A stretch of 64,000 bases of DNA, taken from positions 62,001 to 126,000 of the forward strand of contig CACBYP010000005.1 in assembly GCA_902543485.1 (NCBI GenBank). The letters run 5' to 3'. The notes beneath the pieces are model-generated. The model ran no database searches and was not told the DNA's origin. It saw only the letters and a list, made by a program, of their open reading frames with translations. Positions 4,363 to 31,052 of this stretch are shown piece after piece; position 1 is the first letter of the stretch; each line of letters begins with the position of its first letter. The stretch is from an uncultured Pelagibacteraceae bacterium (GTDB lineage Bacteria; Pseudomonadota; Alphaproteobacteria; Pelagibacterales; Pelagibacteraceae). Made by a program: the position numbers and the translations under genes.

Positions 4363-7233
4363 CTATGCTGCGTCTTCTTTAAACTCATCCATACTTGGAC
4401 ATGTGCAGAATATATTTTTATCTCCATAAACATTGTCTACCCGAGCAACTGGAGGCCAAAATTTGTTTTGTTTTAAAAAACTTGCAGGATATGCTGCTTC
4501 TTCTCTTGAATATTTATGTTCCCATACATCTGATGATAATTCAGTATCAGTGTGAGGAGCGTTTTTAATTGGATTATCAATTTTATCAAATTCACCTGAT
4601 TTAATTTTTTCAATTTCTTGTTTAATCTTAATTAAAGTGTCACAAAATCTGTCTATTTCTGATAAACCTTCGCTTTCAGTTGGCTCTATCATCATAGTGC
4701 CAGCTACAGGCCATGACATAGTTGGTGCGTGAAATCCAAAATCTATCATTCTTTTTGCAATATCTTCTTCAGTTACCCCTGTTTCAGATTTAATATTTCT
4801 AATATCAATTATGCACTCGTGTGCAACATTGCCATTTGCACCTTTGTACAAAATAGGAAAGTGATCTTTAAGTCTATGTGCAATATAATTTGCGTTTAAA
4901 ATTGCAACTTGAGTAGCAAGCTTTAATCCTTCTGATCCCATCATTTTAATATACATCCAAGAGATTGATAGAATACTTGAACTACCCCAAGGAGCTGCTG
5001 ATACTGCTCCAATTCCACTTGTTGGTCCGCAATCTTTTATTACTGGATGATTAGGCAGATAAACTTGTAAATGTTTTTTACAAGCTATAGGTCCCATTCC
5101 AGGTCCACCACCACCGTGAGGAATACAAAATGTTTTATGCAGATTAATATGACAAACATCTGGACCAAAATTTCCAGGCTTTGCAACTCCAACAAGGGCA
5201 TTTAAATTTGCTCCATCCATATAGACCTGTCCACCATGTTTATGAACTAACTCACAAATATCAGTTATTTTTTCCTCAAATACTCCATGGGTAGATGGGT
5301 AAGTTACCATTAAAGCTGCAAGATTTTCTGAATGTTGCTCTACTTTTTTCTTTAAATCATCGAAATCTACATTTCCCTCTTTATCACAATTAACAACAAC
5401 GACTTTCATTCCAACCATTTGTGCGCTTGCTGGATTTGTACCATGTGCCGAACTTGGGATTAAACATATATTACGATGAGCATCATCTCTATCTAAGTGG
5501 TACTTTCTTATAACCATTAGACCTGCATATTCTCCTTGAGCGCCTGCATTAGGTTGTAGAGAAACACCAGAAAATCCTGTTATAGATCTTAACCAATTTT
5601 TTAAATCAGTAAACAAATCTCTAAAACCTTCCATTTGTTCAACTGGAACAAAAGGATGAGGTTCTGCAAATTCTTTCCAAGAAATCGGGATCATTTCAGC
5701 GGCAGCATTTAACTTCATTGTGCACGAACCAAGTGCTATCATAGTTCTATTCAATGCTATATCCTTATCCTCTAACTTTTTAAGATATCTAAGCATTTCA
5801 GTTTCTGAATGATATAAGTTAAAAATTGGATGCTCTAAATATTTTGAAGTTCTTAGTAAATTTTTTGGTAAATTAGGTAATTTAACTGAAGGATCCTCTT
5901 TTTTTATTGATTCTGCAGCATTAAAAATTTTTAATAATTGATTTACTCTATAAACGTTCTTTCTTTCATCGAAAGAGACAGCAAGCATTTCAGAATTTAC
6001 TTTTCGTATATTAACTTTCTGATTTAGTGCATTTTTATAAATTTGATCAGTCTTTTCTTTGGTAATAATTGTAACAGTATCAAAAAAATAATCAGAATAA
6101 ATTTCATAACCTGACTGTTTTATTTTATCAGCAAAACTTTTTGCTAATTGAGAAACTCTTTCAGAAATATTTTTAATTCCCTCTGGACCATGATAAATAG
6201 CATATGCTGCTGAAACAATTGCTAATAAAGCTTGTGCAGTACAAATATTGCTTGTCGCCTTATCTCTTCTGATGTGTTGCTCTCTAGTTTGTAGAGATAA
6301 TCTGTATGCCTTGTTACCATGTCTGTCAACTGACACACCAACAATTCTACCAGGCATCGATCTCTTATACTCGTCTTTAGTTGCAAAAAATGCTGCATGA
6401 GGTCCTCCATACCCCATCGGTATTCCAAATCGCTGAGAGCTTCCAACTGCTATATCAGCACCAAGTTCTCTTGGTGTTTTTAATTTTGCTAATGCTAATA
6501 AATCACAAGCTAATACAGCCTTACCGTTTTTTTTATGAATTTTGCTAATTGCTTCACTAGGATCTTTAATATCTCCTAAAGTTCCAGGATATTGTAAAAT
6601 TCCACAAACTAAATCCTCTTTTAATTGATCTAAAACTTCATCTTCTTTCCCAACTAAAACTTTTAAACCCATTGGTTCAGCTCTAGTTTGAATTACATTT
6701 ATTGTTTGAGGATGGCAATCCTCAGATACAAAAACTAAATTACTATCTTTTTTATTTAATCTATGACTAAGACCCATGGCTTCTGCTGCTGCTGTACCTT
6801 CGTCCAATAAAGAAGCATTAGCAATATCCATACCAGTAAAATCAACAATCATTTGTTGAAAGTTTAATAACATCTCAAGTCTTCCTTGAGCTACTTCAGG
6901 TTGATAAGGTGTATATGATGTATACCAACCTGGATTTTCTAAAATATTTCTTAAAATTACATATGGCGTATAAGTTCCATAATAACCCATTCCAATAAAG
7001 TTTGAGTAAACATGATTTTTTTTTGAAATTGCTCTTAATTTTCTTAAAGCCTCATATTCTGAATTAGACTCTCCGATATTAAGCTCACCTTTAAACATTA
7101 TTTTTTCTGGAACAGTGTTATTCATTAAATCATCTATTGATTGATAATTTAATTCTTTTAACATTTTTGATTGGTCTTCTTTAGAAGGTCCAATGTGTCT
7201 TTTTATAAAATCTTTTTCTGAATTTGGTAACAT
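4363..7233 (-). CDS. gcvP: Glycine dehydrogenase (decarboxylating), P protein of the glycine cleavage system
   Basis: The 956-aa length fits the fused, homodimeric P protein. It decarboxylates glycine with pyridoxal phosphate and passes the aminomethyl group to lipoylated GcvH. The N-terminal FIKRHIGPS motif, [19 protein letters not shown], and the PLP-lysine segment [21 protein letters not shown] (about residue 700) are diagnostic. It is the last of gcvT-gcvH-gcvP; its start overlaps the gcvH stop by one base. Downstream, the FAD oxidoreductase follows after 5 bp with no terminator. Expression should follow the glycine riboswitch at the operon head if transcript or coupling effects carry through. 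Confidence 0.98.
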   Translation of the reverse strand: [956 protein letters not shown]

Positions 7234-7613
7234 TATGCTGATGACTCCTTTGCAAATTTTTCATATTCTTCTTTACTCATAAGACTATCCATTTCAGATT
7301 TATCTTTTATTTTAAGTTTAAAAAACCACGCAGACTCCTCTGGGTCTTCATTTATTTTTGATGGATCATCAACTATCATTTGATTTGTATCTATTACTTC
7401 TCCACTAACAGGAGTGTAAACATCGCTAGCAGCTTTCGTTGACTCAACCACTCCAGCAGTTCCATCTTTATCAACATTTGAACCTTTCTCTGGGAGTTCT
7501 GCAAATACTATATCGCCAAGCATTTCTGTTGCATGCTTAGTTATTCCAATTGTAGCTTCTTCTCCATCTAGTTTAATCCACTCATGTTCTTTTGAATATT
7601 TAACTTCAGACAT
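7233..7613 (-). CDS. gcvH: Glycine cleavage system H protein
   Basis: The 126-aa shuttle carries the aminomethyl intermediate on a lipoyl group between GcvP and GcvT. The lipoylation site is the lysine in [18 protein letters not shown] (about residue 60). The N-terminal [20 protein letters not shown] and the [12 protein letters not shown] strand are typical of the family. It overlaps gcvT by 8 nt and gcvP by 1 nt, so all three subunits are likely translated as a coupled set. Length and motifs are normal. Confidence 0.98.
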
Positions 7614-8712
7614 TAATTTCCCCTTTTACGTAATTTTTTTTATAAAACGGTAAGTTGCAAATATTTGCAGGAATTTTTTTTCCTCTAACTTCAAGAAATA
7701 TTTTTGTATTTACAGTTGAATAACTATTATCGACATATCCCATTGCTATTGGATGTTCAACGCTAGGTCCAAATGTGCCACTTGTTACTTTTCCAATTTC
7801 TTGATTTTTATCATTGTAAATTTTGGTATTTCCTCTAGCAATTACTTTGCTGTCTGGTTTTATGCCAACTCTCAATTTTTTTACTCCGCTTTGAAATTGG
7901 TTTTTTAAAACTTCTGATCCAACAAATTCAGTCTCAATTCTGCTCTTGGGTATTGCCCATTTTAGATTAGCTTCGATAGGACTTGTATCGTTGTCTAAAT
8001 CATTTCCATACAAGCAGAGTCCAGCTTCCATTCTTAATGTATCTCTTGCTCCTAAACCAATCAATTTAGATCCATTTTCTATCAAACTTTCTACAAAAGT
8101 TTCTGTATCACTATGTTTTATAGAAATTTCAAATCCATCCTCACCAGTATATCCTGATCTAGTTATGTATACTTTTTTATTGTTATAGATATAGTTGTTC
8201 CCGTTCATAAATTTTAGACTATTACAACCAGGTATAACTTTATTTAAAACATTTTTTGCTTCGGGGCCCTGTAATGCAATTAATGACAATGACTCGTCAA
8301 GATTTAATTTATATTGATTATCAAGCTTAGATTTTATTACTTCATAATCATTATACTTGCATGCAGCATTTAAGATAATTAAAAATCCATCAGATGTTTT
8401 GGTAATTATCAGATCGTCCTGAATTCCTCCTTTGTTATTCATTAAAAATGAATACTTACTTTGATTAGTTTTCAATTTTTTCAAATCTGCAGGAAAAATC
8501 TTCTCAAGATCATTTGTAAGATCATCACCACCCGATATAAATAATTGACCCATATGAGAAACATCAAAAATACCAGAGTGTGAACGTGTGTATTTATGCT
8601 CTTGTATAATTCCATCTTTATATTGGATGGGCATTTGATATCCAGCAAACTCTACAAGCTTTGCGCCGTACTTGATGTGGAGATTATTTAACGATGTTTT
8701 TTTTATACTCAT
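7606..8712 (-). CDS. gcvT: Aminomethyltransferase, T protein of the glycine cleavage system
   Basis: The 368-aa enzyme transfers the methylene group from GcvH to tetrahydrofolate and releases ammonia. Visible motifs include the N-terminal [29 protein letters not shown] near residue 50, [10 protein letters not shown] near 190 and [21 protein letters not shown] near 215-235. It is the first gene after the tandem glycine riboswitch. The ATG is preceded by AAAGAG about five bases upstream, and both SD and ATG are covered by the pairing described for the expression platform. This explains why the start is taken at 8712. Confidence 0.98.
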
Positions 8713-8796
8713 ATTAACTCTTTATGCCCCCTCTGTCTTTTTGCCTGAGAGATTTGCTCCTTCGGCGAGAATAATTCTCTTTCCAGAGTTAATATG
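8710..8796 (-). promoter_or_regulatory. Expression platform: 12-nt anti-start helix of the glycine riboswitch
   Basis: The RNA segment CAUAUUAACUCU (8796 to 8785) is a perfect 12-nt complement of AGAGUUAAUAUG (8721 to 8710). The latter contains the gcvT Shine-Dalgarno and start codon. The upstream strand consists of the inter-aptamer linker plus the first four bases of aptamer 2's P1 helix. The anti-start helix and a closed, glycine-bound aptamer 2 therefore cannot coexist. The predicted result is a translational ON switch. The pairing is read directly from sequence; the direction of control is inferred. Confidence 0.8.
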
Positions 8797-8866
8797 TACG
8801 GTCCATTTGCCTGAGAGTTTCCGGGGTGGTTGCTCCTTCGGCGCTACAAAAGTAGTCTCTCCCGTA
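8731..8866 (-). promoter_or_regulatory. Tandem glycine riboswitch (two aptamers) upstream of gcvT
   Basis: Read on the minus strand, two copies of the glycine-aptamer core occur: GCGCCGAAGGAGCAA followed by AACTCTCAGGCAAA, and CTCGCCGAAGGAGCAA followed by ATCTCTCAGGCAAA. Aptamer 1 (8797-8866) is closed by UACGG/CCGUA. Aptamer 2 (8731-8788) is closed by CUCUG/CAGAG. Only 8 nt (CAUAUUAA) separate them. It lies directly ahead of gcvT, the standard target. SAR11 glycine riboswitches are known from the literature and are reported there to be glycine-activated. Confidence 0.95.
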
Positions 8867-30914: not shown

Positions 30915-31006
30915 ACCCTTCTCCTTTTATAATTAAATTTAGATCTTAGACTACTAATGGTTTAAGTTATCCACAATAGCACAAAATATAGTTTTGGATG
31001 TTCACG

Positions 31007-31028
31007 TTTTGATTCACTTTTGATTCAC
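31007..31028. repeat. Perfect tandem 11-bp direct repeat (TTTTGATTCAC x2)
   Basis: TTTTGATTCAC occurs twice without spacing, and a third TTCAC lies 12 bp upstream (31001-31005). The 11-bp period is one turn of DNA, so a protein could bind both copies on one face. It lies between the divergent cupin operon and umuD, about 25 bp ahead of the umuD -35. Confidence 0.6.
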
Positions 31029-31052
31029 TTACAGACTCAAAATACAACCTAA

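Follow-up and report, generated by a model that had tools for sequence, protein, structure and literature searches.

The window, i.e. the whole stretch of 64,000 nucleotides from an uncultured Pelagibacteraceae bacterium analysed here, carries on its minus strand the glycine-cleavage genes gcvT, gcvH and gcvP (Table 1). The encoded GcvT is over its full length 100% identical to GcvT of the Pelagibacteraceae single-cell genome AG-426-E13, and the gcvT start is conserved among relatives. Since the starts of both gcvH and gcvP overlap the preceding stops, the whole operon may follow gcvT by translational coupling, and the overlap of 8 nt makes such a coupling plausible for gcvT and gcvH in particular. 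In the gcvT leader aptamer 1 is followed by a compact aptamer 2, a GGGG stretch and the start region with the gcvT AUG. A simple scan of the window revealed no consensus promoter, and the start of the leader transcript was taken from published SAR11 5'-end data, not from this genome. Elsewhere in the window (30959-31049) the SAR11_0636 sRNA is found (RF01827, 99.2 bits).

Table 1. Genes of the gcvTHP operon and elements of its leader, with positions in the window.
Feature	Positions	Strand	Remarks
gcvP	4363..7233	-	start overlaps gcvH end by 1 nt
gcvH	7233..7613	-	start overlaps gcvT end by 8 nt
gcvT (368 aa)	7606..8712	-	putatively controlled gene; AUG = 8712-8710
Start region AGAGUUAAUAUG, 3' strand of the anti-start helix	8710..8721	-	SD-like AGAG 8721-8718 and AUG 8712-8710
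P5 pseudoknot, 3' strand (GGGG)	8727..8730	-	directly 3' of aptamer-2 P1; covarying complementarity
Glycine aptamer 2	8731..8788	-	compact, very short P3b; conserved core
Aptamer-2 P1	8788-8784 (CUCUG) with 8735-8731 (CAGAG)	-	
CUCU	8785..8788	-	common to the anti-start helix and the aptamer-2 P1 5' strand
Inter-aptamer linker CAUAUUAA, 8 nt	8789..8796	-	first 8 nt of the anti-start strand
Glycine aptamer 1	8797..8866	-	Rfam RF00504 and fold; P2, P3a and P3b inside
Aptamer-1 P1	8866-8862 (UACGG) with 8801-8797 (CCGUA)	-	
P5 pseudoknot, 5' strand (CCCC)	8823..8826	-	in the aptamer-1 P3b loop; covarying complementarity

Aptamer 1 matches Rfam family RF00504 at 8874-8789 with 69.2 bits (cut-off 32). 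Aptamer 2 of the window falls below this cut-off, while the homologous aptamer 2 of many relatives passes it with ~33-52 bits. Its core is strongly conserved among SAR11 relatives, and with these copies passing Rfam the view of it as a mere ghost aptamer was not adopted. The glycine-GGAnGA variant (RF03166) was rejected as well, with 79 bits against a cut-off of 110. In SAR11 the P3b loop of aptamer 2 comprises only a few nucleotides, and the Rfam matches of aptamer 2 are mostly 73-78 nt long, compared with mostly ~85-140 nt in other alphaproteobacteria. In J1/2 of aptamer 2 the window and its SAR11 relatives show GAAAG in place of GAGAG.

Between aptamer-2 P1 and the SD lies the 3' strand of a P5 pseudoknot, whose complementarity with the aptamer-1 P3b loop is conserved with compensatory variants (e.g., ACCCA/UGGGU and CCCAA/UUGGG). 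It corresponds to the P5 pseudoknot which, according to a citation in PMC13104608, occurs in 66% of aminomethyltransferase glycine riboswitches. With its covarying strands it is a part of the device, and in the ON state it may assist in drawing the start region away. A P0 helix with a kink-turn between leader and linker was not found, the respective columns being unpaired or deleted in the tandem-model alignment. According to the 5'-end data in PMC5069720, transcripts of SAR11 glycine riboswitches start at the first P1 nucleotide or at most 15 nt upstream, so that a P0 would hardly fit. Linkers of other alphaproteobacteria are often like GGGGGAUGAAA and by eye complement the leader. Three of these features had escaped the original prediction for this leader, namely the P5 pseudoknot, the lost P0/kink-turn pairing and the fact that P3b is very short in aptamer 2.

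What that prediction did contain is the claim that the linker together with the first four P1 bases is a perfect 12-nt complement of the gcvT SD and AUG, and this can be read directly from the sequence. In the minus-strand RNA positions 8796-8785 (CAUAUUAACUCU) are fully Watson-Crick complementary to 8721-8710, and within this helix the linker matches UUAAUAUG (8717-8710) perfectly. To test for chance, the linker strand was compared with the start of each window ORF that encodes at least 120 aa (n=58). It reaches 3-6 bp with 54 of these start regions, 8 bp with two, 10 bp with one and 12 bp with one, and this single 12-bp match is gcvT. Shuffled linkers attained 10 bp in 0.4% of trials. Such a low rate already argues against the complementarity being a by-product of an aptamer that fixes CUCU, ribosome binding that fixes AGAG and a linker that is AU-rich by chance, as could be suspected from other alphaproteobacteria, where short CUCU-type stretches match the start region over 4-5 bp.

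Leaders of gcvT were gathered from Pelagibacteraceae (SAR11) of several genera, and 167 of them were analysed for the helix. All 167 contain a contiguous helix of 10-16 bp between the linker/P1 5' strand and the start region. Its sequence varies between the SAR11 genera while the complementarity is kept, as is apparent from the genus-specific versions UUGUAAUAACUCU/AGGGUUAUUACAA, AAAUAAACUCU/AGAGUUUAUUU and AUUAAAACUCUG/CAGAGUUUUAAU and, in a further genus, AUUAUAUAACUCU/GGAGUUAUAUAAU. In one sequence (L125) the linker strand contains one additional nucleotide, for which the start region has a counterpart (CAUAAUAACUUCU/GGAAGUUAUUAUG), and in several leaders (L003, L073, L109) the AUG is located further 3' and the helix either ends before it or becomes longer. 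With the strands anchored by motif and not by pairing, helix pairs 1-12 are standard pairs in 97.7% of cases in register compared with 35-45% in slid registers. Seven same-branch compensatory double changes were counted on a tree for which only sequence beyond the helix was used, against an average of 1.6 coincidences under random placement (P ~0.0005). All pair-count measures for the helix were above those of all 500 shuffles, and RNAalifold predicted it unprompted on 46 diverse leaders. Aptamer-2 P1 was dropped as covariation control, being uninformative because four of its five pairs never vary.

The conservation and covariation of the 12-nt pair across SAR11 leaders that the original prediction had proposed as a check are thus clearly present. 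Covariation at helix pairs 7-12, where the free half of the linker changes together with the start region, contradicts the by-product explanation, which we regard as extremely unlikely. Chance complementarity was rejected on account of the covariation, the slid registers, the shuffled linkers, the other alphaproteobacteria (see below) and the window ORFs, and the 12-nt linker/start complementarity is confirmed as real. An inverted repeat of this kind exists of course also in the DNA and could be taken for an operator instead of an RNA structure. However, its arms are separated by 63 nt that include a conserved aptamer, one arm covers the start codon, and G-U pairs recur in the helix among relatives, all of which leaves this interpretation with next to no probability.

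Two further observations concern the gcvT leaders as such. In L036-L038 and in 11 of 54 close relatives among L220-L275 the aptamer-1 segment J1/2-P2-J2/3 is swapped wholesale (GACUACUUUUGUAGCG by AUGGUUUGAAAUAAAACCUG and similar), the remaining leader being nearly identical to that of the window. The flanking pair changes from G-C to A-U, and the exchange therefore looks like a compatible replacement of P2. Three genomes of genus g1 (G149, G280 and G284, included in both samples) show no glycine riboswitch match and no close gcvT homologue, with weak matches only. Gain and loss of the switch may hence go together with those of the operon, and as they are also devoid of a close gcvT these genomes were rejected as a disproof of the link between switch and gcvT.

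For comparison, 28 gcvT switches from alphaproteobacteria outside SAR11 gave best helix scores of 5.3 on average and 8 at most. L194 and L205 from this part of the sample possess 8 perfect GC-rich pairs of the same topology (GGCGCUCU/AGAGCGCC and GGCUCUCU/AGAGAGCC), and a shorter form of the plan may thus occur beyond SAR11. Within SAR11 it is not restricted to gcvT. In genus g1 the glcB leader generally shows the same plan with 9 pairs round one mismatch (GCAUA.CACU/AGUG.UAUGC); the g1 glcB leaders L305 and L314 have no such fold. The g1 glcB plan is present in genome G026, the riboswitch positions of which match those given for HTCC1062 in PMC2704228, and its glcB switch is on this basis very probably the one reported to be glycine-activated. 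The switch of that report is the glcB one of Ca. Pelagibacter ubique. The glycine activation that the original prediction had ascribed to SAR11 switches agrees with the title of Tripp et al. 2009 as it appears in the references of PMC2704228 and PMC5069720. In the glcB leaders of genus g4 (L141, L148, L150, L153, L154, L156 and L158) no linker-start helix was detected. By eye, GUACCAAU or ACCGAU located before the aptamer-2 P1 3' strand of these g4 leaders complements AUUGGU(AC) near the start, and GUACCAAU/AUUGGUAC adjoining the start appears to be a different expression platform.

Folding of the leaders was analysed by energy-model predictions without tertiary structure or ligand. For the window RNA without ligand the OFF fold has the minimum free energy (-40.5 compared with -33.2 kcal/mol for ON); it consists of aptamer 1 and the anti-start helix directly adjoining aptamer-1 P1. 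Pair probabilities without ligand are 0.92-1.0 for the anti-start helix and ~0.002 for aptamer-2 P1. Across 156 leaders the median helix probability is 0.997, and in three of them (L125, L146, L127) energy alone does not yield the helix. In stepwise folding P1 dominates the growing transcripts and is then displaced as the start region with the AUG emerges. This means that P1 is predicted to form before the start region is transcribed, which would give glycine a time window to lock it.

The original prediction described anti-start helix and aptamer-2 P1 as mutually exclusive. This holds for the four shared nucleotides (CUCU/AGAG) but not for the other eight, which according to the fold energies are compatible with P1. 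Forcing P1 together with a free start costs 7.3 kcal/mol relative to OFF but only 4.8 kcal/mol if the 8 linker pairs are kept, the 8-bp linker/UUAAUAUG part adding ~-2.5 kcal/mol. Most relatives have a P1 of 4 bp in aptamer 2 and share 3 nucleotides between P1 and the anti-start strand, compared with 4 of 12 in the window. Because only these 4 of 12 nucleotides are shared, the exclusivity is direct only at the SD, and with an 8-bp remnant that can coexist with P1 the closure of P1 alone may not fully free the AUG.

These energies also bear on the question whether the helix, real and conserved as it is, is chiefly a constant brake that keeps gcvT translation low (or a structure sensitive to temperature), with glycine binding by aptamer 1 and P5 altering little. 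Such a role would fit the strong preference for the OFF fold, which amounts to ~7 kcal/mol at 37 °C and 8.7 kcal/mol at 10 °C, as well as the compatibility of the part over the AUG with P1. Nevertheless, the helix shares CUCU with aptamer-2 P1, a constant brake would not need strongly conserved aptamer cores and P5, and gcvT switches elsewhere are glycine-ON, as stated in PMC13104608. We therefore consider a predominantly constant brake improbable.

As already claimed from the sequence alone, there is no intrinsic terminator on the minus strand of the leader; the sole match lies on the plus strand inside gcvT and was rejected. The lack of a terminator would suit Rho-dependent termination or RNase access as main route too, with the start-codon pairing being secondary and untranslated mRNA being terminated or degraded, and according to work cited in PMC13104608 other translational riboswitches do use this route. 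It is, however, at odds with a conservation that stays close to the start region even in leaders whose AUG is shifted with respect to the helix, and for Rho with the glycine response of N. gonorrhoeae, which according to the same source stays intact under bicyclomycin. As the main route we judge it to be very unlikely. What the leader displays is a start region held in a predicted helix and a minus strand free of terminators, as in a translational platform, with a direct exclusivity that extends over 4 nt only.

We consider it highly probable that a tandem glycine riboswitch of the translational ON type occupies the gcvTHP leader, with the linker and the P1 5' strand constituting its anti-start strand. 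This function of the linker, the specific proposal of the original prediction, has gained support from the family-wide conservation, the compensatory changes, the ligand-free fold and the absence of a terminator. At scarce glycine the linker and the aptamer-2 P1 5' strand would pair with the gcvT SD and AUG, and the resulting 12-bp helix adjoining aptamer-1 P1 would block the ribosome start and keep gcvT OFF; the start site is thus probably hidden by linker pairing at low glycine. In the presence of glycine aptamer 2 would close P1 and be held in this state by the aptamer dimer and P5. The closure would withdraw CUCU and free the SD, and at most a weak 8-bp AU remnant would stay over the AUG until it melts or is opened by the ribosome, whereupon translation would be ON and gcvH and gcvP would follow gcvT by translational coupling. 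In this scheme we infer glycine binding, the switching direction with its ON logic, the melting of the remnant and the coupling to gcvH and gcvP.

It further seems rather probable that the linker, which serves as P0/kink-turn scaffold in other alphaproteobacteria, was converted to an anti-start strand in SAR11, that the platform comprises little beyond the aptamers and the SD-AUG of the gene, and that the genera adjusted the helix by compensatory changes, also in cases of a start codon displaced relative to it. According to the comparative model SAR11 may need hardly any additional sequence to switch its glycine-cleavage operon, and the model further suggests a route from a structural linker to a regulatory strand during genome streamlining. 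The pairing of the start codon is backed by family-wide covariation and not by one predicted fold alone, and the mechanism is testable by a few point mutants.

The riboswitch class, its occurrence at gcvT and glcB of SAR11 and translational ON control of gcvT are already known. An earlier description of the linker as anti-start strand was not found in the openly readable literature, a scope that did not comprise Tripp et al. 2009. The gcvT and glcB switches of Ca. Pelagibacter ubique (Tripp et al. 2009; Meyer et al. 2009, PMC2704228; Kazanov et al. 2007, PMC2211319) represent the same element, and the passages on SAR11 switches in PMC2704228 and PMC2211319 describe no expression platform. With the tandem glycine riboswitch of the class of Mandal et al. 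2004 the SAR11 device shares the two aptamers, the gcvT target, P5 and the expected ON logic; it differs from that class by the very short P3b of aptamer 2, the missing P0/kink-turn pairing and the use of the linker as anti-start strand. The gcvT switch of Bacillus subtilis resembles it in having tandem aptamers upstream of gcvT and in being glycine-ON (as presented in PMC5666159 and PMC13104608), but there the control is transcriptional, whereas the SAR11 leader has no terminator. Closest is the gcvT tandem switch of N. gonorrhoeae as described in PMC13104608 (2026), which is likewise a translational ON switch without intrinsic terminator and P0/kink-turn and in which, as predicted for SAR11, aptamer-2 sequence pairs with the ribosome-binding region of gcvT as long as glycine is absent. 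In N. gonorrhoeae the sequence immediately preceding the start has its partners in the aptamer-2 pocket close by (nucleotides of P3a, P3 and P1), whereas the SAR11 start region pairs with the linker and the P1 5' strand in a helix that encloses the whole aptamer 2 and includes the AUG.
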